A model generated the notes under the pieces. It saw only the letters and a list, made by a program, of their open reading frames with translations. It ran no database searches and was not told the origin of the DNA. From positions 237,228 through 301,227 of the forward strand of contig NZ_LT635546.1 in NCBI RefSeq assembly GCF_900120125.1: a stretch of 64,000 nt of DNA. Direction: 5' to 3'. This DNA is from Gemella massiliensis. Its GTDB lineage: Bacteria; Bacillota; Bacilli; Staphylococcales; Gemellaceae. Shown one piece after another: positions 13,600-40,786 of this stretch. The first letter of the stretch is position 1, and every line of letters starts with the position of its first letter. The translations under genes were made by a program, and so were the position numbers.

Positions 13600-13603
13600 A
13601 AAG

Positions 13604-13715: not shown

Positions 13716-13759
13716 TTATTCATCGGAAATTAAATCTTTTTTTTGTACGGGGCTTTTAA

Positions 13760-14050: not shown

Positions 14051-14084
14051 TATGTCAGTAAATAATCTTAGGCAGTCTTTTATA

Positions 14085-14155: not shown

Positions 14156-14190
14156 GATTGATATTTTTTCATGAGAGGGGGTGAGGGTAT

Positions 14191-16139: not shown

Positions 16140-16155
16140 AAAAAGAGGTGAGATT

Positions 16156-17977: not shown

Positions 17978-17990
17978 TGGAGGAAAATAA

Positions 17991-19145: not shown

Positions 19146-19158
19146 GGAGGTATAATAA

Positions 19159-19368: not shown

Positions 19369-19371
19369 TCT

Positions 19372-20763: not shown

Positions 20764-20775
20764 AGGAGAAATTAA

Positions 20776-21438: not shown

Positions 21439-21442
21439 TATT

Positions 21443-21467
21443 AAGGGCTAGCAAAGACTAGCCCTTT
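21443..21467 (+). terminator. Hairpin after the major tail gene
   Basis: AAGGGCTAG (21443-21451) pairs perfectly with CTAGCCCTT (21458-21466), followed by only a short T stretch. Likely a partial terminator reducing transcription into the downstream tail genes, or a 3' stabiliser. Confidence 0.6.
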
Positions 21468-21487
21468 TCAAAAAGGAGATTTTAACA

Positions 21488-21928
21488 ATGAGTATTTTTG
21501 TAAAAAATATAAAAACATTTGAAACAAATATTTTAGGTAAACCTATAAATTTAAAAGCTAATTTAGCAGTTTGGATTCATTTAGAAGCTGATTATGGAAT
21601 TAAACAAGGGCAATGGCAAGAAAAGTACGCAGAAGAACCATTCATTAGTAACGCTAAATTTTTAGCTTCAATTTTAAAAGCTAACGGCTATATAACAACT
21701 GTAAATGAAATTTTGGAAAATGTAACTGAATCTGAATTAGAAATTTTTTCTTTGGAATATCAAAAAGCAGTGTATGGAGATATTACCGAAATATTACTTA
21801 CGATGTTAGGGATAACAAGTGATAGTGAATTGGGAAAGAATATTTTAAATACACAGGTAAGCGAGCTCCTAGAAGAGAAAAAAACAGTTCAACTAGTGAG
21901 CAAGAAGAAAAAACACAAGAAGAAATAG
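21488..21928 (+). CDS. Tail assembly chaperone (G-like)
   Basis: This 146-residue protein between major tail and tape measure genes is the equivalent of lambda gpG. It ends in a lysine-rich tail (VSKKKKHKKK) that comes from reading a translationally out-of-frame A-rich stretch. The -1 frame continues to 22113, giving the gpGT form. Confidence 0.85.
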   Translation: MSIFVKNIKTFETNILGKPINLKANLAVWIHLEADYGIKQGQWQEKYAEEPFISNAKFLASILKANGYITTVNEILENVTESELEIFSLEYQKAVYGDITEILLTMLGITSDSELGKNILNTQVSELLEEKKTVQLVSKKKKHKKK

Positions 21929-22113
21929 ATTGGGATGAGTTGTATTATAGATGTAAAACTTGGTTTGGAATGAATTTGGATGAATTTTTATATGAGTATA
22001 ATTTGGATTATATAATATATATGCATAATAAATATATAAATGAAAATTATAATCAAACTGATCAATCTGAATCAGAAGAAGTTATAACAACAAATTTCAG
22101 TAATATACTTTAA
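21885..22113 (+). CDS. T extension of the tail chaperone, by -1 frameshift
   Basis: The -1 frame is open across the end of the G-like gene and continues EEIDWDELYYRCKTWFGMNL to TAA at 22111-22113. It has no start of its own. Candidate slip sites are the A7 run at 21878-21884 and the A6 run at 21908-21913. Such a frameshifted GT protein is general in long-tailed phages and acts with the tape measure. Confidence 0.8.
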
Positions 22114-22124
22114 GGAGGTAAAAG

Positions 22125-26282: not shown

Positions 26283-26988
26283 TAAATTAATATTCAAAGA
26301 TAAGTCTACCGCTGATTTTCCTTTTGGTATATATGTAATAGAAAATGATGGAATTAATAAAGGAAAAAGAAAAGATAAAATTTTTACAACTGATGAGATG
26401 TCTGGCGGAGTAGTTAGGAGTTCAACTTCATATGATGTTGTTGAAAAAACTTATAAATTACTTATATACGATGTTAAATTATTCCAATTGAATGAATTAT
26501 TAGTATGGTTAGAGGGGAGCGGTAAATTAACTGCTTCTGATAATCCTAACAGATATTACGAGGTGCTGACAGTATCGGCTATAAAATCTAGGTTAGGAGA
26601 AGTTGATGATTATGAAATTGATGTAACATTTACATGTAACCCCTTTTCTTATAATTTGGAAAAAGATATCAAAACTTATGATAGTAACGGCACTATCCAC
26701 AACGAAACTAGTGTAGTTATGTATCCTAAAATAACAATATATGGATCATCTCATAATCAAACTAGTCTTACTATAGGAAAGCAAGTTGTTAGATTTAAAA
26801 ACCTAATAGAAAAAATAGTTATTGAATGTAAACAAGGTGAACAAAATGTATTTGATAAAGATGGAGATTTATTAAATAGTGTTATGCTAGGATCTTTTTT
26901 TGAAATAGAACCAGGAACACACGGAATAGCCTTAGGTAATGGAATATCAAAGGTAGAAATTGAATGTAGATGGGGGGCGTTTATTTAA
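26266..26988 (+). CDS. Distal tail protein (Dit)
   Basis: ATG 26266 (MSLHYNKLIFKDKSTADFPF) follows GGAGGTGG; the longer frame begins inside the tape measure gene. The sequence matches the phage distal tail family, with the conserved Dit ring N-terminal domain and PKITIYGSSHNQTSLTIG in the galectin-like domain. It is the hub between tail tube and baseplate. The 3' end overlaps the next start. Confidence 0.88.
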   Translation: MSLHYNKLIFKDKSTADFPFGIYVIENDGINKGKRKDKIFTTDEMSGGVVRSSTSYDVVEKTYKLLIYDVKLFQLNELLVWLEGSGKLTASDNPNRYYEVLTVSAIKSRLGEVDDYEIDVTFTCNPFSYNLEKDIKTYDSNGTIHNETSVVMYPKITIYGSSHNQTSLTIGKQVVRFKNLIEKIVIECKQGEQNVFDKDGDLLNSVMLGSFFEIEPGTHGIALGNGISKVEIECRWGAFI

Positions 26989-29900
26989 TGTTATGGTTAT
27001 ATGATAAATTTGAAAAAGATTTTACTTACAACGGAATAGTGTTAAATAATGCCTATGAAGCGGACATTCATTGGGTTTTGAATGTTTCTTATAAATTAAC
27101 ATTTAAATATCCTACTGTAGATAATGATATATACAGTTTCATTCAAAAAGGAATGATTGTTAAAGGTGATGAGTTCGACAGAACTAACACATTTAGAATT
27201 AAGGATATTGATGTTTCAGAGCATGAAAAATGCATAATTGTAACATGTTATCAACAAGCTTATGATTATAACAAACGATTGCTTAACAATTTTAGTAAAT
27301 TAAATGCTAATTGTCAGGCAATTTTAGATGAATGGGCTGTAAGTTTTATATCAAAAGAAAAAGATTTAATTTATTATTCTGATATAAAAAAAATAAATTC
27401 ATATAGCACCTTTAAAGATTATAAAGATAAAGAATTAAAAAATTCGTTTAAGATATTAGGTGAAATAGCCGATACTTATTCAGCGGATATTGATTTACAC
27501 GATAATCAAATAAGTTTATTAAATAAATTAGGTAAAGACACTGAAGAAGTATTAACAACAGCTAAAAATATAAGTGAATTTGTAAATTCTAGTAATGCAG
27601 ATGAAATAATAACTAGAATTCATGCTAGTTCAACTTTTAAAGTCGGAGATAAAGAAGACAAGGATAATTTAAAAGAAAAACATCGTAGAGAAATGGAAGC
27701 ACTAAGAAATTCTCAAAAAGAATATTCTAAAATAAGAAATTCTCAAAAAAGAGCAGAACAAATTCAAGAAGAAATTGATAGGAGATATTCCCAAGAATTG
27801 GCTAAGGCTAATAGATCTGTAAAAAGAAGTGGAACTTCATATAAAAGTTATGAACAAATTGTTAATGAAGTTAATAAAAAATACCAAGAAAGAGAAGCAA
27901 GAGCGAACCAACGAAAGGCTGAAAGTCAGGCAATAGCAGATAGAAAAAAAGCGGAAATTGAAGAATTAAAGAAAAAACAAAAAGATGAAATATCAGCTTT
28001 AGATGATGAAATGTCGATAACTCTTATAGTTGATAGCCCGTTAATAAATGATTATCCATTTATTAACGAAATTTCAATGTCAAATAATGATTTAAGAACA
28101 GCGGAAGAATTGGAAGAATGGGCATTCAAACAATTTGCAGAAAATAATATTGATAAACCTAAGAATTCTATTAAAGTAAGTTATGAGCAATTATCAGAAA
28201 ACATCAATAGAGGTGATACTGTTATCCTTAAGTATCTCAAATATGGCATAGATGAACGCATTAGAATAATTGAAACGCATTACGATCCTATGAATAAAAA
28301 ATGGAAAGAGTTTATCTTAGGTGAAAAAGAAACACACTTAGGATCGGAAATTTCAAGCAGCATGAGTGGAGTAGAAGCCAACACAAAAGCATACTTCGAT
28401 TATATAAGAAATAACTTTGATGAAAAGGTGCAAGAGCAATCGGCTAATGCTAGTAAGTTATTTGATAAAAAAGCTAAAGCAATTGAAAATACTATAGGCG
28501 ATGAGATAGAAAAAAATATAGCAAAATCAGAGGTTATAAAAGAAAAAATTATAAAAACGGTAGAAACTTCTATAGAGCCGTTAAAAAACGACATTCAACG
28601 AGCAACTACTGAATTCAACAAAAACCTAAACGAAACTAAACATCAACTTGAAACATTAAAAACTGATAATCACAATAAAATAATCGAACTTGAAAAAGGA
28701 ATAGCTTCCGCCAAAGAAAAAGGCGAAACTGCATTTAATAAAGTAACAGAGCTAAACGGCGAAGTTACTAGAGAGTTTGAGAAGATAAAAAAAGATACCA
28801 ACGATAGCATTAATGCTGTTAAATCAGAATTTAAAGTAACCGCTGATGGCTTATCAAACAAAATAGTCAAGTTAGAAGATTATGTAAATAAAGACGGTGA
28901 AAGAACTCAAACGATGAAGTCTTGGGTTGAAACTAACACTGTAGAAGCTTTAAAACGAGAAAGAACAGAAGTATTAAAAGTAATTGACGGTAAAGGATAT
29001 GTAACAGCTCAAAATCTTACTAATAAGCTAGAAGAAACAAGCAAGGGTATTACTAGGGAAATATCAAGTGCTATTGATAACATAAGCTATAGTAACCGTA
29101 ACTTACTTTTAAATACGCATTTCCCAGACTCAAATTCAATAGAAAATACAAGTGCTACTTTAAAAATTAATCAAAATGATTATAACGGGCATAATTCTAT
29201 TGAATGGCAAGTGGCAGGGGCAGCTAATTATACATGGAAAGGAATTAACGTTAAAAGTAGCATATCGTCAGTTAAAAAAGGTGATAAGTTAGTAATTAGA
29301 TTACCAATCTATATTTTTAGTGATGTAAATGACGACGCAGGAGTTAAGTTAAGATTAAAAAATCATAAAAATAACTCTACTTTAAAATCTTTTAATTTAT
29401 CCGATAATATGCCAAAAAATCAATGGGTAATTAAAGAGATTAAATTTATAGCAGAAAGCGATTTTGATTTCACGAAGAATAATTTCTTTTTCGTGGCAAT
29501 TGATAAAAATGGGCATTGCAAAATAGCTGAACCTTATCTTGGATATGGAACTGTAATACCTAGTTCGTGGTCTCCAGCTCCTGAAGATAGTACTAACCAA
29601 ATAAACGCATTAAATACTTGGAAGCAAACAGCAACTGAAACGTTAAATAAAGTTGGCAGCATTAATCCTAATGACTTAGTTAAATACTCACAGATGAGAA
29701 TAACTGATGAGGGTATTGATTTTGGCTCTGGTAGACAATTTAACGGTAAATCGTTAGCTAGTATGCTAAGAATAAGTCCTGACAGTATCCAAGCGATAAC
29801 TGATAAATTTATAATTACTCCAAGTAATGAGAATTTGGTTGAAGTTGATAAGCGAAATGAAATTGGATTAGAGCAACGTTCACTATGGCTAACCTCTAAA

Positions 29901-31265
29901 ATTAAAGAAGATAACCTATTAAATAAAAATGAATTTAGAATAATAGGAGAATTTATCTGGCAAGGTAACTTAACTTATGACCTTAACTTTATAATTGAAA
30001 TAAAGAGAAACGGTCAAAATGCAGAATACTTTTTTAAAAAAATTGCTTCAAAAAATTCAACTTATATATCAAGTAAACGAGGAGTTGATTTAAGGGTTAA
30101 CCCTGATATTTCAGATATTGAATATTACAGATTAGGAATATATCAAGAAGGAAATAACAACTTCCACAAAATAGCTTGTAAAAATTTAGAAATTCGCCAA
30201 AAAAGGTCAGCAGAGTTAATTGTTGACGGAACTATAAACTCTAAGCATATATCAACAGGGTCAATAGAAGCTGGGCATATATCCGCCGGATCAATACAAG
30301 CTATTCATATGACGGCTGAAAGCATTGCCGCTGACGCTTTAAAAGTTGATGAAGCAATGATTAATAAATTGTTAGTAAATAATCTATTGGTTAAAGAGTT
30401 GTTTGCCAATAGTGCATTTATCAATAAATTACAAGCCGTTGACATCAGTGCTACTCAAATTACCACTGGGTATTTAAGCGGAGATAGGATATATGGTGGA
30501 ACTATTGAGGGGGTTACAATTACCGGGTCAACACTTACAGGTACTACTAAGATAAAAATAGGTGAGTATGGTTATATGCAACCAGTAGATAGAGGACTCC
30601 AAATTAACACTCCTGCTTCTTATACTGCTAATTATGGAACAGGGGTTCAGATTTTAGGTGATACATGGGATAATTATCCTAAGGGGATATTTATTTACCA
30701 CGACCCAGATTTTTCTGTCGCAGGACAAACGGTTTATCCTAACGTCGATAATACATTGTTGACAGTGCACGGTTATGCTGCAATTTGCAATAAATTTAAT
30801 GGCAATCCTGTACAAGGACACGCTATAATCTCTAATAGATATAAAGACACTCCTGTTAATGGGATTTATAAAATTGCATTTATAGGTTGGGACGGACGTA
30901 GCGGTCAATTATATGTTGATGACGGAACGGGTTCATCAGGAACTTGGTGGTTCACGCCTGACTCTTCATCATCAGATAGAAGATTGAAATTAGGGATTGA
31001 GGATAGTAATTATAACGCAATAGAATTTATTGAAAAATTAAACTTCAAACAATTCGATTGGAAAAGGGATAAATTCGGGTATAAAAAAGACTACACTAAA
31101 TGTGGATTGATTGCTCAGGACATTCAAGCGTTGGATAGCAGCTTAGTATTTTCTCAAGGTGATAAGTTAGCACTAGATGACTTTAGACTTGGTAATATAG
31201 GGCTTAAAGCAATTCAAGAGTTAAATATTAGATTAAAACGATTAGAAGAAAAAATAGGAGCATAA
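26988..31265 (+). CDS. Tail-associated protein with S74 intramolecular chaperone
   Basis: This protein of about 1425 residues starts at ATG 26988 (MLWLYDKFEKDFTYNG). The N-terminal third is the Tal/gp18-type baseplate hub, then comes a long coiled coil (about 220-340 and 460-680) and a carbohydrate-binding-like region near 700-860. Helical GSIEAGHISAGSIQA repeats lie near 1080, and a C-terminal peptidase S74 autocleaving chaperone domain is marked by SSDRRLKLGIED and KCGLIAQDIQAL. It is the probable host receptor-binding protein. Confidence 0.9.
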   Translation: MLWLYDKFEKDFTYNGIVLNNAYEADIHWVLNVSYKLTFKYPTVDNDIYSFIQKGMIVKGDEFDRTNTFRIKDIDVSEHEKCIIVTCYQQAYDYNKRLLNNFSKLNANCQAILDEWAVSFISKEKDLIYYSDIKKINSYSTFKDYKDKELKNSFKILGEIADTYSADIDLHDNQISLLNKLGKDTEEVLTTAKNISEFVNSSNADEIITRIHASSTFKVGDKEDKDNLKEKHRREMEALRNSQKEYSKIRNSQKRAEQIQEEIDRRYSQELAKANRSVKRSGTSYKSYEQIVNEVNKKYQEREARANQRKAESQAIADRKKAEIEELKKKQKDEISALDDEMSITLIVDSPLINDYPFINEISMSNNDLRTAEELEEWAFKQFAENNIDKPKNSIKVSYEQLSENINRGDTVILKYLKYGIDERIRIIETHYDPMNKKWKEFILGEKETHLGSEISSSMSGVEANTKAYFDYIRNNFDEKVQEQSANASKLFDKKAKAIENTIGDEIEKNIAKSEVIKEKIIKTVETSIEPLKNDIQRATTEFNKNLNETKHQLETLKTDNHNKIIELEKGIASAKEKGETAFNKVTELNGEVTREFEKIKKDTNDSINAVKSEFKVTADGLSNKIVKLEDYVNKDGERTQTMKSWVETNTVEALKRERTEVLKVIDGKGYVTAQNLTNKLEETSKGITREISSAIDNISYSNRNLLLNTHFPDSNSIENTSATLKINQNDYNGHNSIEWQVAGAANYTWKGINVKSSISSVKKGDKLVIRLPIYIFSDVNDDAGVKLRLKNHKNNSTLKSFNLSDNMPKNQWVIKEIKFIAESDFDFTKNNFFFVAIDKNGHCKIAEPYLGYGTVIPSSWSPAPEDSTNQINALNTWKQTATETLNKVGSINPNDLVKYSQMRITDEGIDFGSGRQFNGKSLASMLRISPDSIQAITDKFIITPSNENLVEVDKRNEIGLEQRSLWLTSKIKEDNLLNKNEFRIIGEFIWQGNLTYDLNFIIEIKRNGQNAEYFFKKIASKNSTYISSKRGVDLRVNPDISDIEYYRLGIYQEGNNNFHKIACKNLEIRQKRSAELIVDGTINSKHISTGSIEAGHISAGSIQAIHMTAESIAADALKVDEAMINKLLVNNLLVKELFANSAFINKLQAVDISATQITTGYLSGDRIYGGTIEGVTITGSTLTGTTKIKIGEYGYMQPVDRGLQINTPASYTANYGTGVQILGDTWDNYPKGIFIYHDPDFSVAGQTVYPNVDNTLLTVHGYAAICNKFNGNPVQGHAIISNRYKDTPVNGIYKIAFIGWDGRSGQLYVDDGTGSSGTWWFTPDSSSSDRRLKLGIEDSNYNAIEFIEKLNFKQFDWKRDKFGYKKDYTKCGLIAQDIQALDSSLVFSQGDKLALDDFRLGNIGLKAIQELNIRLKRLEEKIGA

Positions 31266-31268
31266 AGA

Positions 31269-31694
31269 ATGGAATTAAAAATTCAGAATAAAGATTTAGA
31301 AATATTATTACAGACGGTATCAAATTTACCAATTAAAAAAATGAAAGCTAATAGAGGGCGTGCTAAGTTTCTTAAAAAGTTACAAGAGAAATTAGAAACT
31401 TATATCGAAGATAGAACCGAACTAGCTAAAATATACGTCGAATATGACAAAGACCAACCTAAAGTTGATAGCGACGGAAATTTAATCTATAAAGATAATG
31501 CTAATGTAGACGAGTTTATCAAAGAGTTAAATGAGTTAAATACTGAAAGAGTAATAATTCAAGGGGGCGAATATTCTGAACGTTACACTGACTTTTTTAA
31601 TGACTTGTTAGAGCTTGAAGTTGAGTTGTCGGCACTCGAAACAATTCTAATTGATGATATTTTAGAACAATTTGAAAAAGGAGATAAAAAGTAA
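31269..31694 (+). CDS. DUF1617-like phage protein
   Basis: This 141-residue protein starts MELKIQNKDLEILLQTVSNL. Its size, position after the tail fibre gene and helical pattern suit DUF1617 proteins of siphophages; function not known. Its stop overlaps the next ATG by one base. Confidence 0.55.
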   Translation: MELKIQNKDLEILLQTVSNLPIKKMKANRGRAKFLKKLQEKLETYIEDRTELAKIYVEYDKDQPKVDSDGNLIYKDNANVDEFIKELNELNTERVIIQGGEYSERYTDFFNDLLELEVELSALETILIDDILEQFEKGDKK

Positions 31695-31942
31695 TGACTT
31701 TAGAAATTAAAAAAACAACCAAATTAGAGGGTAGATTTAAGGTAGAGAATGAAACAGTTAAATTAGTAACTGTAGAAATTAACGATAAAGGAGTATCAGA
31801 AATTTACGAAAGTATGTATAACCAAGAATTGTACAGTAAAAATCGTGTAGAAATGCGTAAGCATGAAAAAGAACTTAGGGAAAAAAGATACGAGATAGAG
31901 GATAAAATTTTAGAGGAATTGGAAAAAACTAAACAGGAGTAA
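31694..31942 (+). CDS. Hypothetical protein before holin
   Basis: This 82-residue charged protein has a helical Glu/Lys-rich C-terminus (REKRYEIEDKILEELEK). It lies between the DUF1617-like and holin genes. Family not recognised. Confidence 0.6.
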   Translation: MTLEIKKTTKLEGRFKVENETVKLVTVEINDKGVSEIYESMYNQELYSKNRVEMRKHEKELREKRYEIEDKILEELEKTKQE

Positions 31943-31947
31943 TTTAA

Positions 31948-32337
31948 ATGGCATTAATAGAATTAAGATTTTCGGATTTAGTAATACATCTTAGGGAATT
32001 CTTTAATATTGCAATTTTATATATTGTTATGGCGTTAATAATATTTGATATTTTATCTGGGATTGCAAAGTCTTGGGTTACTCATGAGGTCAACTCAACA
32101 CTAAGCAGGAAAGGGATTCTTAAACACACAGCTATTATTATGTTTATCATAATATCATTTCCAATTCTAACGGCAATTGGATTTAAATCTGTGGCGACAA
32201 CTATAGTTTTATATCTTATATATAGCTATTTAATTTCAGTTATTGAGAATTTAACAGTATTAGGAGTTCCTTTCCCAAAAGGAATATTAAAAAGACTTAC
32301 TAAATTAAAAGATTTAATAGAAAACAAGGAGGAATAA
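31948..32337 (+). CDS. Holin, TcdE/phage_holin_4 type
   Basis: This 129-residue protein has three to four transmembrane helices and the family motif ALIIFDILSGIAKSWVTHE, followed by STLSRKGILKH. It would form membrane lesions releasing the endolysin. A second small holin-like gene follows directly. Confidence 0.85.
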   Translation: MALIELRFSDLVIHLREFFNIAILYIVMALIIFDILSGIAKSWVTHEVNSTLSRKGILKHTAIIMFIIISFPILTAIGFKSVATTIVLYLIYSYLISVIENLTVLGVPFPKGILKRLTKLKDLIENKEE

Positions 32338-32592
32338 ATGACAGAATTACAACAATTTTTAAGTCCAGCAATAATGGCACTTTGTTTACTGATAGGAAAC
32401 AGCATTAAGACTAGCTTTCCTAAAATACCTAACAATTATATTCCCGCAATATTAGCAGTTATAGGGGCAGTTTTAATTTGCATATTAGAGGGATATTCAG
32501 GACATAATATCGTGACAGGTATTGTTAGCGGATTAAGTGCAACTGGACTACATCAAATTCATAAAGGGATAAGAGAAGTTAAAAATAATTAA
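32338..32592 (+). CDS. Second holin-like membrane protein
   Basis: This 84-residue protein has three hydrophobic segments and a short basic tail. The end SGLSATGLHQIHKGIREV is typical of small phage holins. It may be the true holin or an antiholin partner of the preceding gene. Confidence 0.75.
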   Translation: MTELQQFLSPAIMALCLLIGNSIKTSFPKIPNNYIPAILAVIGAVLICILEGYSGHNIVTGIVSGLSATGLHQIHKGIREVKNN

Positions 32593-32619
32593 CACACTTT
32601 GAACAGTTGTTTATAGTGT

Positions 32620-32648
32620 TTGACAAAAAGTAGAATTTGTATTAAAAT
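32620..32648 (+). promoter_or_regulatory. Strong promoter before structured leader
   Basis: TTGACA (32620-32625), a 17-bp spacer and TAAAAT (32643-32648), located after the holin genes and before a gene-free region of about 240 bases. A separate promoter inside the lysis cassette suggests expression independent of the late operon. Confidence 0.75.
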
Positions 32649-32654
32649 AAATTC

Positions 32655-32889
32655 AGAGATAAAAAGGAAACTATTCACCTCCTTTCAGTCTCGTTTTAAC
32701 GTTAAAATTCGTAGTGATACGAAAGTGTAATAGAAGCACATTACACTGCTTGGCAGAGCTTAAGAACTGTTCCTTGGAGATAAGCCTAAGAAGCACAAAG
32801 AGGAGTTAGTCAACCAACAATTCGACTAATCGTAAGACCTGGTTAGAGTCTTTTCTAATCCGTGCTTAATTTTGTTTTATGGAGAGAAA
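32655..32889 (+). ncRNA. Structured leader or small RNA of unknown class
   Basis: About 235 bases without an ORF between the promoter and the nuclease-like gene. Visible pairings are GTGTAAT/ATTACAC (32725-32746), TTAGTC/GACTAA (near 32806-32828) and GGTTAG/CTAATC (near 32841-32860). A long-range pair links AAGCAC (32791-32796) to GTGCTT (near 32862) and closes a multibranch fold. Local G+C is higher than in neighbouring genes. Not a known riboswitch, T-box or tRNA-like sequence that I can recognise. Confidence 0.5.
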
Positions 32890-33408
32890 ATGGATAATGT
32901 TGATTTAAAAAAATTGTATGATGATTATAAAAAGAAATTTCATAATAATTCTTGTATGATAGAAACGAATTATAAAAAATTAAATGAATTTATAGTCAAA
33001 TTCAATATTTTAGATTTACATCATTTATTTGGAATTCATAAACTTGAAAATATTAACGCTAGCAAAACTAAAGAATTTTTAGAGAAAAATGAATTAGATT
33101 TAAATAAGTATAGAAAATATAAGAACTTTAATGAAGTAGTTAATAGGATCAATAATTATAATTTTATATCGGAAATTTTTATTGATAAAAAATATAATTA
33201 TTGCATATTAGCCAAAGATTTAAATAAAAATACTATGAAATTATCTGTTGTATTTTATAAAGAAAATGAGGATAAATATATAGTATTCGGATTGAGAAAA
33301 ATTTATAAAAATGTTTTTGTACCTACTACATTACATGAAGGTAGAGGACAAGCAATTTATAAAAGTTATAGACAAACTAAAATTAAAAATATTAAGTGGT
33401 TAGACTGA
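32890..33408 (+). CDS. PBECR4-type nuclease-domain protein
   Basis: ATG 32890 follows GGAGAG. The 172-residue product contains YKKLNEFIVKFNILDLHHLF followed by GIHKL near residues 30-55 and HEGRGQAIYKSYR near 160. This resembles the phage-barnase-EndoU-colicin-RelE (PBECR4) RNase-like domain. It sits behind its own promoter and a structured RNA, between holins and endolysin. Toxin, host takeover or defence are all possible; none is shown by sequence alone. Confidence 0.6.
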   Translation: MDNVDLKKLYDDYKKKFHNNSCMIETNYKKLNEFIVKFNILDLHHLFGIHKLENINASKTKEFLEKNELDLNKYRKYKNFNEVVNRINNYNFISEIFIDKKYNYCILAKDLNKNTMKLSVVFYKENEDKYIVFGLRKIYKNVFVPTTLHEGRGQAIYKSYRQTKIKNIKWLD

Positions 33409-33453
33409 GATTATTCTTGGTCTTTTTATTATGAAAAAATGGAGGATAAATAA

Positions 33454-34185
33454 ATGGTTAAAACAATAGATATAGTAAATGAAGCAAAAAGAATAGCAAA
33501 TTTAGGAATAGGGGTAGATCAAGACGGAGCATATGGCACTCAATGTGTCGATTTACCGAATTACTTAAGTGTATTATTCTTTGGTAAAGCATTAAGAGGT
33601 AATGCAATAGATTTATTAAATAGTGCTAAGTCATTGGGTTATACAGTTGAATATAATGTGGTAGGAGATGTCAATTCTAAGCCACGTGCGGGGGCGGTGT
33701 TTGTTATGGATACCACTTATATTGCTGGTCATTCTTACGGGCACACAGGATTAGTAATTGCTGATAGTGACGGGTATACAATGAGTACCATTGAACAAAA
33801 TGTTGATGGTAACGCTGATAGTTTATATGTAGGCGGTCCTGCCCGATATAGAAATCGTGACTTTAGTGGCATTGTTGGGTGGTTCTACTTCCCAGTGAAC
33901 GACACACCGGCTAATAACCCAGCTAATACCGATTTACAAGCATTAGATAAAGCTAGAACATTCAAGGTAACTGTTGATAAGTTAAATGTGCGTTCAGCTC
34001 CATCGTTAGATAGTGAAGTAGTAGCAACTTACGAAAATGGTGAAGAATTTAATTATATGGAATATTGCTATGCTAATGGTTACGAATGGTTATCTTACAT
34101 CTCACACAGTGGAGAAAGACGTTATGTTGCAAGTATGGAGCTTGAAACTGGTAAAGAATATGGTGAATGGAGATATAGAGATTAA
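33454..34185 (+). CDS. Endolysin: CHAP-type hydrolase with SH3 domain
   Basis: This is a 243-residue protein. The N-terminal CHAP-like cysteine peptidase or amidase has catalytic Cys in YGTQCVDLPNYL (near residue 31) and His in HSYGHTGLVIAD (near 94). A linker rich in Asn/Pro/Thr and a bacterial SH3 cell-wall-binding domain (about 165-235, VTVDKLNVRSAPSLDSEV) follow. It lyses the host wall after holin action. It has no choline-binding repeats, unlike the adjacent surface proteins. Confidence 0.9.
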   Translation: MVKTIDIVNEAKRIANLGIGVDQDGAYGTQCVDLPNYLSVLFFGKALRGNAIDLLNSAKSLGYTVEYNVVGDVNSKPRAGAVFVMDTTYIAGHSYGHTGLVIADSDGYTMSTIEQNVDGNADSLYVGGPARYRNRDFSGIVGWFYFPVNDTPANNPANTDLQALDKARTFKVTVDKLNVRSAPSLDSEVVATYENGEEFNYMEYCYANGYEWLSYISHSGERRYVASMELETGKEYGEWRYRD

Positions 34186-34253
34186 TATTCCTTGTCAATT
34201 CCAAAGATATGTAGTATAATGTAATTACTTTATTTTTATTCATTTTTATTCAC

Positions 34254-34286
34254 ACCCCTTATCATTTAGATAGGGGGTATTTTTTA
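34254..34286 (+). terminator. Terminator of the lysis operon
   Basis: ACCCCTTATC (34254-34263) and GATAGGGGGT (34269-34278) pair around ATTTA with a T-rich tail. The right arm begins a stretch duplicated ahead of the second choline-binding gene. Confidence 0.85.
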
Positions 34287-34460
34287 TTTCACTTGATTTA
34301 GTAAGGAAAATATGATACTGTTAATGCGTATAAAATAAAATTTAAGGAGGAAATAAAAATGAATAAAGTAGTTAAGATTACTGCAAAAGTTTTGCTAAGT
34401 ACTGCATTGTTATCATCAATTATAATTCCCGCATCTAACCAAGCAAGAGCTGATTGGAAA
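34270..34460 (+). repeat. Duplicated terminator-promoter-signal-peptide segment, copy 1
   Basis: From the right arm of the terminator through the leader and about the first 30 codons of the choline-binding gene, the sequence is nearly identical to copy 2 at 38141-38330. TTGATT and TACTGT may form a shared weak promoter. TTAAGGAGG precedes both ATGs. Confidence 0.85.
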
Positions 34461-35108
34461 CAAGATGAAAACGGTTGGTGGTATGATGAGGGAAATGGGA
34501 GATATCTTGCTGATGGAAGCTGGTCGATTGGAGGAAAAGCTTATCGTTTTGATAAAAGAGGATATATGGTAACAGGCTGGTATTATGATAATGGTGATAA
34601 GCATGAGAGATTAAAAGGATGGTATTATTATGATCCAGTAAATGGGGATGAAAAAAGAGGTTGGCAAAAGATAGATGGAAAATGGTATTATTTTAATGCT
34701 ATGGCACTTACAGGTTTACGGAATATAGATGAAAAAAAATATTATTTTGATCCAGTAAATGGGGATATGAAAACAGGGTGGATAAAGATTGAAGGGAAGT
34801 GGCACTATTTTGATCCTGAAAATGGTAATGAAAAATCAGGTTGGCAGAATATAGATGGAAAATGGTATTATTTTATTTCTGGAGCATTTACAGGTTTTAA
34901 TTATATAAATGAAAAATTGTATTATTTTGACCCAGTAAACTGTGATATGAAAATAGGATGGACAAAAGTAAATGGAGTTCAATATTATATGGATCCTAAT
35001 GATGGAGGAGCGGTAGCAAGAGATAAAGTCTTGCTTATGAATGGTGTTTATTACACTTTTAATGCGGGTGGTAAACTTATAAAAGTTGAGTTAGCTAATA
35101 AAAATTAG
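34359..35108 (+). CDS. Choline-binding repeat surface protein A
   Basis: This 249-residue protein has a signal peptide (residues 1-31, cleavage likely after NQARA) followed almost entirely by choline-binding repeats with GWYYY, KWYYFN and YYFDPVNGD motifs. There is no catalytic domain, so it would attach to phosphocholine on teichoic acids as a surface coat or adhesin. A phage origin suggests lysogenic conversion. The repeats implying choline-decorated host wall are known from streptococcal relatives. Confidence 0.88.
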   Translation: MNKVVKITAKVLLSTALLSSIIIPASNQARADWKQDENGWWYDEGNGRYLADGSWSIGGKAYRFDKRGYMVTGWYYDNGDKHERLKGWYYYDPVNGDEKRGWQKIDGKWYYFNAMALTGLRNIDEKKYYFDPVNGDMKTGWIKIEGKWHYFDPENGNEKSGWQNIDGKWYYFISGAFTGFNYINEKLYYFDPVNCDMKIGWTKVNGVQYYMDPNDGGAVARDKVLLMNGVYYTFNAGGKLIKVELANKN

Positions 35109-35135
35109 CTAATAAATAACGGGAAGAAATATTTT

Positions 35136-35165
35136 AACCCTTGCAGGAATGCGGGGGTTATTTTT
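35136..35165 (+). terminator. Terminator after choline-binding protein A
   Basis: AACCC plus TTGCA (35136-35145) pairs with TGCGG plus GGGTT (35150-35159), then ATTTTTG. Confidence 0.75.
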
Positions 35166-35257
35166 GTTTGTGAAACAATTATTATGAAACATATTGTTTT
35201 CGTAAAAGTTATGTGGTAATATATAGGTATAAATAAAAAATTTAAGGGGAAAATATC

Positions 35258-35710
35258 ATGAATACCATTAAAGATGTAGCTAAATGGTTTTTATCGAAAG
35301 AGAGTATGACGCATAAAAAGTTACAGAAGCTTTGTTATTATTATGTAGCGTGGAGTTATGCTTTATATAGTAAAGTAGATTTAGTTAATCCGGAATTTGA
35401 AGCATGGGTACATGGTCCAGTTTCGCCGTCAATATATAGTTCTTATTTTACTTATAGATGGAATTTTATTCCACAGTATGAAGATAAAGTAAGTGATTTT
35501 TCGGATGAAGAAACGTACTTATTGGAGAGTGTTTGGCTTACATATGGAGACAAATGTGGTGATGAATTAGAAGCCTTGACACACTCAGAAGCACCATGGA
35601 TAGAAGCAAGAAGTGGGTTAGGTGAATACGAGCGTTCAAATGTTGAAATTTCACCTAAAACAATGGAAAGATATTATCAATCCGTTTATAAGGTTAATCA
35701 AGGTGTCTAA
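35258..35710 (+). CDS. Panacea-domain antitoxin (SocA/DUF4065-like)
   Basis: This 150-residue protein is a Panacea-domain antitoxin: VAKWFLSKESMTHKKLQKLC followed by YYYVAWSYAL, then FEAWVHGPVSPSIY near residue 47. Panacea antitoxins in prophages neutralise diverse toxins, usually encoded next door. Here a partner overlaps its last 8 bases, but is frameshifted. A promoter-like TTTTCG...GGTAATATA region precedes AAGGGG. Confidence 0.85.
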   Translation: MNTIKDVAKWFLSKESMTHKKLQKLCYYYVAWSYALYSKVDLVNPEFEAWVHGPVSPSIYSSYFTYRWNFIPQYEDKVSDFSDEETYLLESVWLTYGDKCGDELEALTHSEAPWIEARSGLGEYERSNVEISPKTMERYYQSVYKVNQGV

Positions 35711-36094
35711 AAAAATTGAAAGATTAACCAATGTAACTGTTGATAAATCATTAACTATGGGTTCAAGATTAGATAGCAAAACCACAAAATTCAAGATAAC
35801 TATTCAGCATAATTTAAATAATAATTTTTCTTTCAATATAATAAATAAGAATAACGGTCATAAGGAGTTTCATAAATTTATTTGTAATACAGTTGGAAAA
35901 AATTATCTATTTCGGAGGTTAACCGATTGTATTTAAGAACTAGAGGGAAAAATAAAATAATAGAAATAGAGGGTGTTGAATTTGAAGAAGTACACTATGG
36001 GCGAGATCAATCTGCTTTTAGAATATTTGGATACCATCATGGAGGAGAGTTTATTTTAACAAGAATAGATACAAACCATAAAAGTCATAAATAG
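35703..36094 (+). pseudogene. Panacea partner (probable toxin), split by a frameshift
   Basis: GTG 35703 overlaps the antitoxin end and reads 77 residues (MSKKIERLTNVTVDKSLTMG) to a stop at 35934. The -1 frame continues LSISEVNRLYLRTRGK to TAG at 36092-36094. The zero-frame heptamer A AAA AAT at 35897-35903 is a classic slippery site. Joined by a -1 slip, it gives about 130 residues of continuous coding character. Either it is inactivated by loss of one A, or it is expressed by frameshifting. Confidence 0.65.
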
Positions 36095-36095
36095 T

Positions 36096-36128
36096 CCTTT
36101 GTCAGAGATGACGGAGGGTTATTTTTTA
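36096..36128 (+). terminator. Terminator of the Panacea operon
   Basis: CCTTTGTCA (36096-36104) and TGACGGAGG (36109-36117) pair, followed by GTTATTTTTTATT. Confidence 0.8.
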
Positions 36129-36190
36129 TTGCCTGAATAACGGAAATTTTTAAATATTTCTATTATTTAGGAATTTTTTTAAAAAAGGGG

Positions 36191-36235
36191 TTGACTTTTT
36201 GTAGCAACTTAATATATAATTATAATTGTAGCGAC
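36191..36235 (+). promoter_or_regulatory. Promoter and operators of RHH gene 1
   Basis: TTGACT (36191-36196) and TATAAT (36215-36220). The decamer TTGTAGC(A/G)AC occurs twice, at 36199 and 36226, overlapping the spacer and start region, as expected for an autoregulated ribbon-helix-helix gene. Confidence 0.6.
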
Positions 36236-36254
36236 AAAAGAAAGGAGAAAAGGT

Positions 36255-36431
36255 ATGGTTGCTAAGAAAATAGGTAGACCCACGGAAAATAAAAAAGATA
36301 CTATGTTAAGAGTGAGAATAGATAGTAATATAGTAATTAAACTTGAAGAAATATCAAAAAAAGAAAATATTTCCAAATCAGAAGTAGTAAGACGTGGTAT
36401 AATCAATCAGTATAATGATATAAAAAAATAG
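36255..36431 (+). CDS. Ribbon-helix-helix regulator 1 (CopG-like)
   Basis: This 58-residue protein starts MVAKKIGRPTENKKDTMLRV behind AAAGGAG. A predicted beta-strand (MLRVRID) and two helices ending SKSEVVRRGIIN match CopG/MetJ-type DNA-binding proteins. No toxin gene accompanies it. Its stop codon lies inside the first hairpin of the downstream element. Confidence 0.75.
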   Translation: MVAKKIGRPTENKKDTMLRVRIDSNIVIKLEEISKKENISKSEVVRRGIINQYNDIKK

Positions 36432-36565
36432 AAGATTGCTAGACTCTCGCAAAGTTACAATCTTCTACCAGAAAGGAATAGTACTCCTAAATTTATTATA
36501 CCATAGGAGTACATTCTTATCAAATTAAAATTTAAGGAGATAAAAATGTATAATTTACAAAAACA
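36429..36565 (+). repeat. Cassette tail copy 1: two hairpins plus start of rha
   Basis: TAGAAGATTG/CAATCTTCTA (36429-36467) forms hairpin 1 and GTACTCCTA/TAGGAGTAC (36481-36512) hairpin 2. Then comes TTAAGGAGATAAAA and a copied beginning of rha (MYNLQ, ATG 36546) that stops after 13 codons inside the next promoter. Close to copy 3 at 37155-37285. Confidence 0.85.
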
Positions 36566-36576
36566 AAATAATACTC

Positions 36577-36616
36577 TTGACTTTTAAGCACGCATAAATT
36601 ATAATTAATATGTGCT
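36577..36616 (+). promoter_or_regulatory. Promoter and operator of RHH gene 2
   Basis: TTGACT (36577-36582), 17 bp, TATAAT (36600-36605). Inverted half-sites AGCAC (36587-36591) and GTGCT (36612-36616) flank the -10. Confidence 0.65.
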
Positions 36617-36640
36617 CATAAAAAGAAAAGAGGTGAAAAA

Positions 36641-36820
36641 ATGGGAGCAAAAGTTGGAAGACCCAAAGTGGATAACCCTATTAATATTCGAACAAGTGTT
36701 AGATTGGATAAAATAACTGATAAGAAATTAATGGAATATTGCCAAAAAAACAATATATCAAAAGGTGAAGCAGTTAGAAAAGGAGTCCACCTACTTTTGG
36801 GACAACAAAAAAAAGATTAG
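36641..36820 (+). CDS. Ribbon-helix-helix regulator 2 (CopG-like)
   Basis: This 59-residue protein starts MGAKVGRPKVDNPINIRTSV. It has the same layout as regulator 1 (GRPK/T, a strand, then EYCQKNNISKGEAVRKGV). A GAGGTGAAAAA site precedes the ATG. Sequence differs enough that it probably binds its own operator. It is the second unit of the cassette array. Confidence 0.75.
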   Translation: MGAKVGRPKVDNPINIRTSVRLDKITDKKLMEYCQKNNISKGEAVRKGVHLLLGQQKKD

Positions 36821-36948
36821 AGATATAGGTTCTGAGGCTACAATCTCTAATCAAACACAAACCGTTATGATTTGATAAATCTATTATATCATATTATAAA
36901 CGGTTAATAAATAAAAAATTTATAATTTACAAAAACAAAATAAAACTC
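36815..36948 (+). repeat. Cassette tail copy 2: diverged hairpins plus start of rha
   Basis: GATTAGAGAT/ATCTCTAATC (36815-36852) and AACCGTT/AACGGTT (36860-36905) reproduce the two-hairpin layout of copies 1 and 3 with different bases. A TATAATTTACAAAAACAAAA stretch equals the early codons of rha, but the ATG has become TTT. Confidence 0.75.
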
Positions 36949-36978
36949 TTGACTTTTAGCATTCAAAAATGCTATAAT
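36949..36978 (+). promoter_or_regulatory. Promoter and operator of RHH gene 3
   Basis: TTGACT (36949-36954) and TATAAT (36973-36978). The dyad TAGCATT (36957) and AATGCTA (36968-36974) lies between them and touches the -10. Confidence 0.65.
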
Positions 36979-37001
36979 GTTTGTTGTTAGGAGGTGAACA
37001 G

Positions 37002-37157
37002 ATGAAAACTCTGACAATAAGGTTAGAAGATGATTTACATAAAAAGCTGAAATTATTAGTAATTGAAAAAGATACTACAATTCAAAATCTAATTGTGGAA
37101 TTAATCAATAGACAAATAATGGAAAGTGATAAAAGTAAATCGACAAATAAAAAATAG
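37002..37157 (+). CDS. Ribbon-helix-helix regulator 3
   Basis: This 51-residue protein starts MKTLTIRLEDDLHKKLKLLV behind GGAGGTGAACAG. A classic RHH strand (TLTIRLED) and helices (TTIQNLIVELIN) are visible. It lacks the GRPK start of regulators 1 and 2, so it comes from a different RHH subgroup. Third unit of the array, immediately before rha. Confidence 0.75.
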   Translation: MKTLTIRLEDDLHKKLKLLVIEKDTTIQNLIVELINRQIMESDKSKSTNKK

Positions 37158-37285
37158 AAGATTGCTCAACCCTGAGAAAGTTACAATCTTCTACCCGATA
37201 GGAATAGTATTCCTAAATTTATTATACCATAGGAGTACATTCTTATCAAATTAAAATTTAAGGAGATAAAAATGTATAATTTACA
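37155..37285 (+). repeat. Cassette tail copy 3: two hairpins leading into intact rha
   Basis: TAGAAGATTG/CAATCTTCTA (37155-37193) and GTATTCCTA/TAGGAGTAC (37207-37238), where one C-G pair of copy 1 is a T-G wobble. The TTAAGGAGATAAAA leader then opens the real rha gene at 37272. Confidence 0.85.
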
Positions 37286-38120
37286 AAATCATAATAAAAA
37301 ATTTACATCGTTAGAATTAGTAAAGCAAATTAATTTTTTTAGAGGAGAATTTCAGAATAAATCAGAACTTGCACATAATGATTTACTAAAGATAATAAGA
37401 GATGAATTTGAAGAAGAAATCTCACTGGGAAAAATTTCCCAGTCAAAATATACTAATTCTCGAGGTAGAGAATACCCAATGTATATATTAACAACATCAC
37501 AAGCTAAGCAAGTGTTAATTCGAGAAAGTAAGCAAGTAAGACGTGCGGTTATTAAATATATTGAGGAACTTGAAGGAAATCTGACTCCCCAACAAAAACG
37601 CCTATACTACAAAAAAGTACCAGTAATGACAGTAGATATGTTAGCAAAAGAATTAAATATATCAACAGTAACTGTAAATAAAATGTTGTATAAATTAGAT
37701 GACGGAAATGTGTTAACCGGAAATGAGTTAAAATATTTTAAAAAAGAAAACAGTTATAAGTCAAGTTGTAGCTTGCTTAGAATAATCTACCATCGTGTGG
37801 CTGATACAATAGCAAGAAATTTAGGTAAGCAATTAAGTGATTATTTTCTGTTTGATTGTGATAAATATAAACTACCCCTTGAGCAAATGCAAATAGCCTT
37901 AAAACAAGCAGACAACCTTGCTAGAATAGGTAAACAAATAAGCAATAAAGAAGATAAGGATTTTGTGTTAATGAAAGCCAGTGAGATATTAGTTAATATC
38001 GGACTATGGGATAATAAAGAAGATACTGATTACGATATAAATAGCCTCGATGGCTGGAACAAGAAATGTAAAATAGGTAATAATTTAGGCTACATAAATA
38101 GGCAGTTAAAATTATTGTAA
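37272..38120 (+). CDS. rha: Rha-family phage regulatory protein
   Basis: This is a 282-residue protein. The N-terminal Rha-type domain (residues 12-100) includes FTSLELVKQINFFRGEF, KSELAHNDLLKIIRDEF and MYILTTSQAKQVLI. A C-terminal domain has a helix-turn-helix-like part (VDMLAKELNISTVTVNKMLY). Rha proteins interfere with superinfecting phage or affect lysogeny. The first codons are duplicated upstream twice. Confidence 0.8.
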   Translation: MYNLQNHNKKFTSLELVKQINFFRGEFQNKSELAHNDLLKIIRDEFEEEISLGKISQSKYTNSRGREYPMYILTTSQAKQVLIRESKQVRRAVIKYIEELEGNLTPQQKRLYYKKVPVMTVDMLAKELNISTVTVNKMLYKLDDGNVLTGNELKYFKKENSYKSSCSLLRIIYHRVADTIARNLGKQLSDYFLFDCDKYKLPLEQMQIALKQADNLARIGKQISNKEDKDFVLMKASEILVNIGLWDNKEDTDYDINSLDGWNKKCKIGNNLGYINRQLKLL

Positions 38121-38126
38121 AGCACT

Positions 38127-38155
38127 CCCCCTATAATTTAGGGGGTATTTTTTAT
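38127..38155 (+). terminator. Terminator after rha
   Basis: CCCCCTA (38127-38133) pairs with TAGGGGG (38139-38145), followed by TATTTTTTATTT. Confidence 0.85.
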
Positions 38156-38330
38156 TTCACTTGATTTAGTAAGGAAAATATGATACTGTTAATGCGTATA
38201 AAATAAAATTTAAGGAGGAAATAAAAATGAATAAAGTAGTTAAGATTACTGCAAAAGTTTTGCTAAGTACTGCATTGTTATCATCAATTATAATTCCCAC
38301 ATCTAACCAAGCGAGAGCTGATTGGAAACA
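38141..38330 (+). repeat. Duplicated terminator-promoter-signal-peptide segment, copy 2
   Basis: Nearly identical to 34270-34460: from the GGGGGTATTTTTTA terminator arm through the leader and signal-peptide codons of the choline-binding gene. Indicates that a gene copy was inserted on the right of the accessory block. Confidence 0.85.
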
Positions 38331-38985
38331 AGATGAAAACGGTTGGTGGTATGATAGGGGAAGTGGACATTATTATAAAGATGGAGTATATGATATTGGA
38401 GGAAAAGCTTATCGTTTTGATAAAAGAGGATATATGGTAACGGGCTGGTATTATGATAATGGTAAGCATGAGAGATTAAAAGGATGGTATTATTATGATC
38501 CAGTAAATGGAGATGAAAAAAGAGGTTGGCAGAATATAGATGGAAAATGGTATTTTTTTAGTTATGGTAATGGCAATGCACTTACAGGTTTACAGTTTAT
38601 AGATGATAAAGAATATTATTTTGATCCTGTAAATGGGGATATGAAAACAGGGTGGATAAAGATTGAAGGGAAGTGGCGCTATTTTGATCCTGAAAGTGGA
38701 GCTCAAACAGAAAAAACTTGGAGATATATAAACGGGAAATGGTATTATTTTGACGCAGTTAATCCAGTTACAGGTTTTTTGTATATAGGTGAAAAAAGAT
38801 ATTATTTTGACCCAGTAAACTGTGATATGAAAATAGGATGGACAAAAGTAGATGGACATCAATATTATATGGATCCTAATGATGGAGGAGCGGTAGCAAC
38901 GAATAAAGTCTTGCTTATGAATGGTGTTTATTACACTTTTGATTGGATTGGCAAACTTATAAAAGTTGAGTTAGCTAATAAATAA
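38227..38985 (+). CDS. Choline-binding repeat surface protein B
   Basis: This 252-residue protein shares with protein A the signal peptide, the first repeats and the C-terminal end, but central repeats differ (FFSYGNGNALTGLQFIDDKE). Again there is no enzymatic domain. The pattern of identical flanks and diverged middle suggests duplication followed by selection or recombination on the exposed repeats. It is the last phage gene before attR. Confidence 0.88.
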   Translation: MNKVVKITAKVLLSTALLSSIIIPTSNQARADWKQDENGWWYDRGSGHYYKDGVYDIGGKAYRFDKRGYMVTGWYYDNGKHERLKGWYYYDPVNGDEKRGWQNIDGKWYFFSYGNGNALTGLQFIDDKEYYFDPVNGDMKTGWIKIEGKWRYFDPESGAQTEKTWRYINGKWYYFDAVNPVTGFLYIGEKRYYFDPVNCDMKIGWTKVDGHQYYMDPNDGGAVATNKVLLMNGVYYTFDWIGKLIKVELANK

Positions 38986-39035
38986 CGAAACTAATTATTT
39001 AATAAAGAATATATCCGCAAGATTTTTAATAAAAT

Positions 39036-39069
39036 AAGAACTAGCTTTTATTTTAAAGTTAGTTCTTTT
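39036..39069. terminator. Bidirectional terminator at the prophage right end
   Basis: AAGAACTAGCTT (39036-39047) and AAGTTAGTTCTT (39056-39067) form a 12-bp stem with one G-T pair, with A-rich sequence before and T-rich after. It can end choline-binding protein B transcription and, on the minus strand, the reading frame ending at 39059. Confidence 0.8.
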
Positions 39070-39151
39070 GTTGTTTTAAAATATATTCTAGTGGCATTCC
39101 TTTGTCAATACCTCTAAATATCCTAAATGCTACTATTACATCTGCGTAGAA
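39059..39151 (-). other. Open minus-strand frame running from the att junction
   Basis: From the comGC junction the minus strand reads ADVIVAFRIFRGIDKGMPL, then EYILKQQKN, and stops at 39059-39061 inside the terminator stem. In the excised circular phage this would be downstream of the recombinase strand. It may be the tail of a gene spanning attP. Short, so chance cannot be excluded. Confidence 0.35.
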
Positions 39152-39152
39152 A
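39140..39152. other. attR: prophage-chromosome junction in comGC
   Basis: Bases from 39149 read GAA ATG TTG ATT, the Glu-Met-Leu-Ile of a ComGC pilin helix. Bases just upstream read TGC GTA instead of the expected hydrophobic prepilin codons, and further upstream the frame is phage sequence. The crossover must lie within a few bases of 39149. The exact core requires attL, which is outside the window. Confidence 0.8.
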
Positions 39153-39430
39153 TGTTGATTGTACTATTTATAATAGCGATATTATTAATATTAATAATAC
39201 CGAACATTACTAAAAATATTGACACAGCAAAAGATAAAAGTTCGCAAGCATATGAAAAAACTGTTCAATCTCAGGTAACGGCATATCAAATAAATGAAAA
39301 AGATAATGATGTAACATTTGAAAAATTGGTAGAAAAACATTATTTAGATGGCCCGGTAGATAAGGCCAGCACCGCACCTAATGGCAAAAAAATTATTATT
39401 TCAAATGGAAAAGCTACATTACAAAACTAA
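39149..39430 (+). pseudogene. comGC: comGC 3' part, 5' end displaced by prophage
   Basis: Residues EMLIVLFIIAILLILIIPNI are the conserved N-terminal pilin helix beginning at Glu5. The prepilin leader and cleavage site are missing. The remainder (about 93 residues) is a normal ComGC body. The ATG at 39152 is the internal Met, without a ribosome binding site. ComGC is the major competence pseudopilin, so this lysogen is expected to be non-transformable by the standard route unless the phage excises. Confidence 0.88.
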
Positions 39431-39848
39431 AGAAGCATATACTTTGGTAGAGATGCTTGCTGTTTTACTAATAGTTAGTATTATAGTAATTATGTTATCT
39501 GTTATTTCAATAGGAGATTATACTAAATATAAGGAAAGGTTAGCGGTGAATGAATTAATCTCCGATATTTATTTTATACAAACATCAAGTTTAAGAGAAG
39601 GTAATTCTCCGTATATTGATTTATTTTCCGGTGATAATGAATATTTAATGTATTATGATAAGCATTCAAGTTGGAAAAAATTATCTCAAAATGGAAAAAT
39701 AGTTGCTAATGGTCCGACGATAAGACTTAGGTATAGAGAGGGGAACTTAATATCAAGAGCTAACACAATAGATGTAAAATTTGAACGCAGTTTGTATCGT
39801 ATTATCGTTCATTTAGATAGTGGGTATATTACGGTAGATGAACTATAA
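39405..39848 (+). CDS. comGD: Minor competence pseudopilin ComGD
   Basis: The frame starts at 39381 or, preferred here, ATG 39405 (MEKLHYKTKEAYTLVEM), just before the comGC stop. The prepilin site is Ala before YTLVEMLAVLLI. About 147 residues, normal for ComGD. Translation is probably coupled to comGC, so integration upstream should also affect it. Confidence 0.85.
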   Translation: MEKLHYKTKEAYTLVEMLAVLLIVSIIVIMLSVISIGDYTKYKERLAVNELISDIYFIQTSSLREGNSPYIDLFSGDNEYLMYYDKHSSWKKLSQNGKIVANGPTIRLRYREGNLISRANTIDVKFERSLYRIIVHLDSGYITVDEL

Positions 39849-40119
39849 AAGTGGTTTTACATTTGTTGAACTGATTATTGCTTTAGCAATTTGTTCCATG
39901 ATATTCGGTTTTCTTATACCTAATTTAGTTCGTCAATATTCAACTATTGCAATGATAGAAAAACAACTTGAGATGAAAGAAATTCTTTATGAAGAAATTA
40001 GTAATCATTATAATGAAAAAAATTTCAGTGTTAGAAGAGAAAACTATGAAATAGTAGTTAGTCTTGAAAAGGCGGAAATAGTGGATATAAATACTAATGA
40101 AAAGGTCAGTTATGAGTAA
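39838..40119 (+). CDS. comGE: Minor competence pseudopilin ComGE
   Basis: This 93-residue protein starts MNYKSGFTFVELIIALAICS with the prepilin peptidase site SG/FTFVE. It overlaps the end of comGD by 11 bases and comGF at its 3' end. Part of the pseudopilus minor tip complex. Confidence 0.85.
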   Translation: MNYKSGFTFVELIIALAICSMIFGFLIPNLVRQYSTIAMIEKQLEMKEILYEEISNHYNEKNFSVRRENYEIVVSLEKAEIVDINTNEKVSYE

Positions 40120-40602
40120 AAGCAAAAAAGAGGGTTTTACACTATTAGAACTTACCATATCGTTATTTCTTTTGATTATAGTTACACTTTTGTTGATGCT
40201 TATACTTCAGACAACATTGAAAACTTCTAAAAATTTTTTAGATTTTACAAATTATGAATATGCTTTAGCACATAAAAAAATCTTTCAAATTTATAATTCC
40301 AGCGAAAAACTTGAGAGGGAAAGTAATTACATTATAATGAAAAATAAAGAAAAAAAGAAGAAGTAAGGTTAGTATTTCAAGGAAATAAAATTTATATGGA
40401 AAAACAAAAAAATACAAACTCTTATGCAGGATATATCCTTCTTCTTCAAAAATTAAAAGGTTACTCAATAGAGCAAAGTGACGACAGAATAAAAATTACC
40501 ATCATTGATAGAGAAAATAAAAAGAGAATACTTTACCTTATGCTAAAAAATCAAAAAGATAATGATAAAGATGAAAAAAAAGAGGATGACGAAATTGAAT
40601 AA
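40112..40602 (+). CDS. comGF: Minor competence pseudopilin ComGF, interrupted by a -1 frameshift
   Basis: ATG 40112 (MSKSKKEGFTLLELTISLFL) or 40097. The frame stops at 40364-40366 (TAA), but the -1 frame continues EEVRLVFQGNKIYMEKQK to 40602, completing a ComGF of about 160 residues. The zero-frame heptamer A AAA AAG (40351-40357) lies precisely where the frame changes. Programmed frameshifting, a real mutation or a missing A in the sequence are the alternatives. An A8 tract would restore the frame. Confidence 0.75.
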
Positions 40603-40786
40603 GAAAAATCTTAAAAATGGTAGTGCAGTTATAACTTCACTTTTAGTAATGCTTTTTGTTATTGTTGTTATGTTTAGCATAATTGGAATTTATATAAACA
40701 AGATGTATAGTATAAAAAATCTAAATGATTATTATGATAAAAAAATAGTAGAACAGTTAACTAAAAATATTAGTAATAAAGAATAA
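40562..40786 (+). CDS. comGG: ComGG-like competence protein
   Basis: This product of up to 74 residues has one transmembrane helix (SAVITSLLVMLFVIVVMFSI) and a short periplasm-facing tail. Start is uncertain: ATG 40562, 40571, 40586 or TTG 40595. It overlaps comGF and is the last gene before a terminator, exactly where ComGG lies. Sequence is poorly conserved in this family. Confidence 0.7.
   Translation: MIKMKKKRMTKLNKKNLKNGSAVITSLLVMLFVIVVMFSIIGIYINKMYSIKNLNDYYDKKIVEQLTKNISNKE

Follow-up and report, generated by a model that had tools for sequence, protein, structure and literature searches.

A prophage integrated at the pilin motif codons of comGC in Gemella massiliensis

The split comGC gene and its prophage

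The stretch of DNA analysed here (the window) comprises 64,000 nucleotides, C7:237228-301227, of the Gemella massiliensis genome (1.80 Mb, 99.99% complete, a draft of 7 contigs). The features at the comG locus are as follows.

1..766, minus strand: N-terminal half of a large serine integrase, 470 aa from ATG; the gene extends to about -646, left of the window
1..39148, no strand: prophage body; the whole prophage is C7:236561-276376, 39,815 bp, its left end 667 bp outside the window
39036..39067, plus strand: intrinsic terminator with a 13-bp stem and T tail, just inside the prophage right end and upstream of the comGC remnant
39124..39174, no strand: attR, phage attP left arm TACTATTACATCTGCGTA and host comGC GAAATGTTGATTG, with the putative crossover GA at 39149-39150
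39149..39430, plus strand: comGC 3' fragment, with no leader peptide; the frame restarts at Glu-Met within the pseudopilin motif
39381..39848, plus strand: comGD, N-methylation motif (E 2.8e-4, falling slightly short of the Pfam cut-off)
39838..40119, plus strand: comGE, N_methyl (PF07963, 7.7e-7)
40097..40366, plus strand: comGF, with an early stop caused by a frameshift in a poly-A run (about 40345-40355); reading continues in another frame to about 40601
40562..40786, plus strand: comGG, an ORF recognised by position and by similarity to other Gemella operons

The comGC frame (EMLIVLFIIAILLILIIPN...) opens at 39149 with GAA ATG (Glu-Met) and has its stop at 39428-39430. The bases before 39149 are, in order, a prophage gene, the intrinsic terminator (one found at 39036-39067 against 0.2 in shuffles) and the attP left arm, and the junction of phage DNA and comGC falls inside the pseudopilin motif, between FTLI and EM. 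The original prediction that the frame resumes at the conserved Glu-Met with phage DNA before it was therefore correct, the prophage reaching up to 39148. It had drawn the feature from 39059 to 39430; the end is that of comGC, but the start lies in phage DNA at the terminator, comGC beginning only at 39149.

Reading of the left flank had been proposed as a check, and comGA, comGB, the comGC 5' end and attL were all present there. The 20 kb left of the window (L002) contain a ThiF-family gene, comGA (T2SSE, 2e-73), comGB (T2SSF, 1e-23), a comGC stub and the leftward integrase gene. The stub consists of 24 codons, MNKLLILKNRLKKKEGFTLIETLM followed by a stop, in which the leader and cleavage motif run into phage DNA at the Glu codon. 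Joining of the host flanks gave one open frame of 113 residues (MNKLLILKNRLKKKEGFTLIEMLIVLF... / MNKLLILKNRLKKKEGFTLIEMLIVLFIIAILLILIIPN...). The junction is not a product of chance, because ComGC is conserved in eight other Gemella genomes (89-99% identity over about 92 residues of the 3' part) and the rebuilt protein resembles intact Gemella ComGC across the join. In seven other Gemella genomes, which served as the phage-free comparison, comGC is whole and the site is empty.

With the rebuilt full-length ComGC as query, no second comGC was found in the same genome. The ComGC pieces there were the two halves only, at C7:236501 and C7:276361, and the other matches were weak, to other pseudopilins and the like. 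An intact copy elsewhere was one of two findings named beforehand as fatal to the prediction, the other being a left flank without comGA, comGB and the comGC 5' end; neither applies, and a gene otherwise present in single copy has been removed by the insertion. The two junctions, the split gene, the lack of a second comGC and the empty site in relatives establish that a prophage is integrated in comGC at the pilin motif codons.

The prophage looks complete, because a full set of phage modules is present. A DnaD-like loader and tail genes are encoded in addition to the following, which were assigned with PHROGs except for the endolysin.

4085-4846: CI repressor
9168: SSB
10699-11412: antirepressor
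11417: RusA
14191: TerS
14505: TerL
16156: portal
17264: head protease
17991: capsid
22125: tape measure
26251: Dit
31948 and 32338: two holins
33454: CHAP endolysin

No near DNA relative was found among phage records with 12 kb of the prophage tested. Cargo-type genes lie near the prophage ends. A PemK/MazF-domain protein and an HSDR_N-type endonuclease are encoded at 1204-3176, between integrase and repressor, a region that often holds superinfection-exclusion genes. Two related secreted choline-binding-repeat proteins at the right end (34359-35108 and 38227-38985) are likely lysogenic-conversion cargo; their genes were about 87-89% alike at the DNA level in cross-comparisons with related prophages. 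The cargo region also encodes a SocA/Panacea-domain protein (35258-35710), a possible antitoxin. An Rfam Bacilli-1 RNA (RF02931, 78 bits) is located at 32707-32771, between holin and endolysin.

Attachment sites, integrase and other lysogens

The attL sequence is TTTTACTCTTATAGAAACGCTTATGTAG and attR is TACTATTACATCTGCGTAGAAATGTTGATTG. No long direct-repeat att core was detected, TAGAAA alone being common to both, as is expected for serine integrases. The deduced attP has strong dyad symmetry, with 13 of 17 positions paired and the best centre at GA; 47 of 20,000 shuffled sequences reached the same score. Large serine integrases rely on an asymmetric central dinucleotide, which is GG in A118 (PMC3556126). 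Crossover most likely took place at the GA that opens the Glu codon: the attP dyad centres on this dinucleotide, and in Gemella bergeri, whose attR reads GCGTGGATATG, no other pair of adjacent bases near the core is present in both attL and attR. The G. bergeri attR has GAT (Asp) instead of GAA at the crossover codon, which counts against this model; the simplest guess is a later mutation. Apart from this Glu to Asp change, the comGC 3' parts of the G. massiliensis and G. bergeri lysogens have no non-synonymous difference.

A leftward serine recombinase had been predicted at the other prophage end, and the 470-aa integrase was found there. The whole gene (C7:236581-237993, equivalent to L002:18282-19694, minus strand) ends about 20 bp from the attL junction, the same arrangement of serine recombinase and att junction as in comGC/comYC prophages. 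The protein has Resolvase (PF00239, 1e-37), Recombinase (PF07508, 9e-11) and zinc ribbon (PF13408, 5e-6) domains, and it is 31-33% identical to the TP901-1 and pneumococcal comYC-type integrases. A tree was built from 11 integrases, in which IPP46 of strain 670 was taken as a comYC phage by assumption and not from its junction. The Gemella integrase grouped with that of G004 (Gemella), which lies in a 5'-nucleotidase gene, and with P954-type integrases of Staphylococcus, outside the TP901-1/IPP46 clade. A single clade of comGC-targeting integrases was rejected in an AU test on the 11 sequences (p-AU 0.001). The low identity and the position outside the known comGC-integrase clade, in both the tree and the AU test, suggest that the Gemella integrase probably came to target the comGC site independently. 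In another Gemella genome (L046:6330-8274), a sister serine integrase, 51-52% identical, adjoins the broken end of a gene for a secreted 5'-nucleotidase, and this group of integrases therefore changes targets.

The same comGC site is used in three genomes: G. massiliensis, G. bergeri ATCC 700627 and the one represented by IMG/VR provirus 2687453343. G. bergeri ATCC 700627 (L003, L011) has the same attL core, an almost identical attR and a related prophage. In the IMG/VR provirus (40,516 bp), attR and comGC are identical to the window (276/276 bases), but its integrase gene has 19 differences in 1413 sites and mosaicism is seen elsewhere, which suggests separate integrations. Synonymous divergence between the window strain and G. 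bergeri was 0.06 for the integrase and about 0.13-0.18 for host genes. Together with the comparison of lysogens and the purifying selection on comG described below, this lower divergence agrees with repeated integration in recent times, into a gene that had been useful up to that point, rather than with a single old event. It is not proof, because prophages can also recombine in place. When ComGB was used as bait for further comGC prophages, none was found among viral contigs, and the matches among phage records were nine from Listeria, Enterococcus and Staphylococcus, each 2-16 kb long and lacking annotation. No earlier paper on a comGC prophage in Gemella was found in the open-licence literature.

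The remainder of the comG operon and host competence genes

Between G. massiliensis and G. bergeri, dN/dS was 0.03-0.23 for most comG genes (0.16 for comGD) and 0.43 for comGG, indicating purifying selection. The true start of comGG may lie a few codons downstream of the ORF start. In eight other Gemella genomes compared, comGF reads past the frameshift point in one frame. If it is not a sequencing error, the comGF frameshift is a second lesion of the operon, as expected after competence loss. Because of it, excision alone might not restore competence in this strain, and competence may already have been lost for another reason. Genes for ComEC, the A24 prepilin peptidase and DprA are all open in the same genome; ComK had no match there.

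A study of 2020 concluded from similarity to B. subtilis and pneumococcus that the competence gene set of Gemella is not complete (PMC7136413), and no report of natural transformation in Gemella was found in the literature. Contrary to that study, the presence of a complete comGA-GG operon, syntenic and under purifying selection, and of phages that target it argues that Gemella possesses a competence machinery.

Proposed mechanism and comparison with known systems

We are confident of the following reading: the serine integrase of a temperate phage inserted the phage at the Ile-Glu codons of comGC, the lysogen would lose its competence pilus, the phage would thereby be protected, and excision would restore comGC. 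The large serine integrase of a temperate Gemella siphophage would recombine attP with attB inside comGC, at the codons of the conserved Ile-Glu of the pseudopilin N-terminus and most likely with crossover at GA of the Glu codon. Integration leaves a dead-end peptide of 24 codons with only the prepilin leader and cleavage motif. A terminator and 40 kb of phage DNA lie between the comGC 3' part with comGD-GG and the promoter, start codon and leader of comG, so that the lysogen would make no competence pilus and take up no DNA. Competence loss would in turn shield the prophage from replacement by transformation ('chromosomal curing'), a protection that has been argued for pneumococcal comYC phages (PMC4774983) and placed in an arms race (PMC12637031). 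By analogy, the Gemella lysogen would not transform and its phage would benefit. The prophage is presumably able to excise, and precise excision would restore comGC.

It is possible, though rather unlikely, that the site was chosen solely as a well conserved DNA target and that competence loss is an unselected side effect. FTLIEM is among the most conserved stretches of comGC, and the closest sister integrase, at 51-52% identity, is located in a gene for a surface 5'-nucleotidase, which is unrelated to competence. Against this, at least two integrase clades reach the same codons of comGC, and unrelated elements disrupt other competence genes, namely comK, comFA and comM (PMC4774983). A reversible switch, with a prophage that toggles competence by excising while the cell survives (active lysogeny, as for Listeria comK), appears very improbable. 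In its favour, a serine integrase that excised the prophage would restore the comGC sequence precisely, and the purifying selection that still acts on comGC and comGD-GG would be expected of a gene that is often intact. However, this selection would be equally explained by recent, repeated integration (synonymous divergence of 0.06 for the integrase against 0.13-0.18 for the host), the two lysogens with identical comGC carry different phages, and with the comGF frameshift excision would not yield a working operon in this strain. Misjoining of a phage contig to comG, conceivable in a draft of 7 contigs, can practically be dismissed, as both junctions are contained in a single contig of 714 kb and are seen again in records of other genomes.

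For a broader proposal we judge the chances even: that integrases of at least two clades each adopted the comGC Glu codon, that pilus disabling is a repeatedly selected phage strategy in Gemella and streptococci, and that Gemella is transformable. If such repeated selection is true, Gemella would be naturally transformable, against the published view. The findings extend to Gemella a conflict between phage and transformation documented mainly in streptococci and lactococci, and suggest that the same pilin codons were reached by integrases of different ancestry. They imply a DNA-uptake pilus that works in Gemella now or did so recently, and this has a bearing on the route by which this opportunist acquired genes horizontally. 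The predicted attP/attB pair might serve as a new serine-integrase tool.

The original prediction had compared the locus with the Listeria phage in comK. The analogy is valid in that A118 is also a serine-integrase prophage within a competence gene (PMC3556126). A118 differs in that it is found in another gene and its integrase is 34% identical to that of Gemella; a ComK match was not found in the Gemella genome. Closer precedents are TP901-1 and pneumococcal phages, which integrate in comGC itself, at the same codons (PMC7693887, PMC7600539, PMC8637289, PMC4774983, PMC10383233), and attL, attR and the rebuilt gene place the Gemella insertion at the FTL(I/V)-E-M codons in the manner of TP901-1 and PPH100.

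Lactococcus TP901-1 resembles the Gemella prophage in its large serine integrase, the leftward int at the prophage end and the insertion at the FTLIE codons of comGC. Its 13-bp attB, TCAATCAAGGTAA (= TTACCTTGATTGA), lies in comGC, and the other strand codes for F-T-L-I-E (PMC7693887); the ends of the TP901-1 record, TTACCTTA and ATTGA, agree with insertion at these codons. It differs in its host family and in its integrase, which is 33% identical to that of Gemella and belongs to another supported clade.

The comYC/comGC prophages of S. pneumoniae (PPH100 with Int2b, IPP46 and PhiBM6001.3) are inserted at the same Val/Ile-Glu codons. The PPH100 attB core is ACCAACATCTCCACCAA, read on the other strand as TTGGTGGAGATGTTGGT, that is L-V-E-M-L-V (PMC8637289). 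The integrase of IPP46, assumed to be the comYC phage of strain 670, shares 31% identity with that of Gemella, and the crossover reported for the pneumococcal phages is GG, whereas GA is predicted for the Gemella phage. Pneumococcal lysogens with a phage in comGC, which encodes the major competence pilin, do not transform (PMC7600539). Excision restores comGC in pneumococcus (PMC10383233); in BM6001, about 3% of the cells had comGC restored by excision, but transformants were not obtained (PMC10383233). In related systems, attP and attB are joined by the serine integrase, and excision additionally requires a directionality factor from the phage (PMC3783163). Prophages in comYC are known from S. 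pneumoniae, S. mutans, S. parauberis and L. lactis, and their integrases all resemble SP670_2190 (PMC4774983). The phenomenon is known already; what is new here is the host genus and the distantly related integrase.
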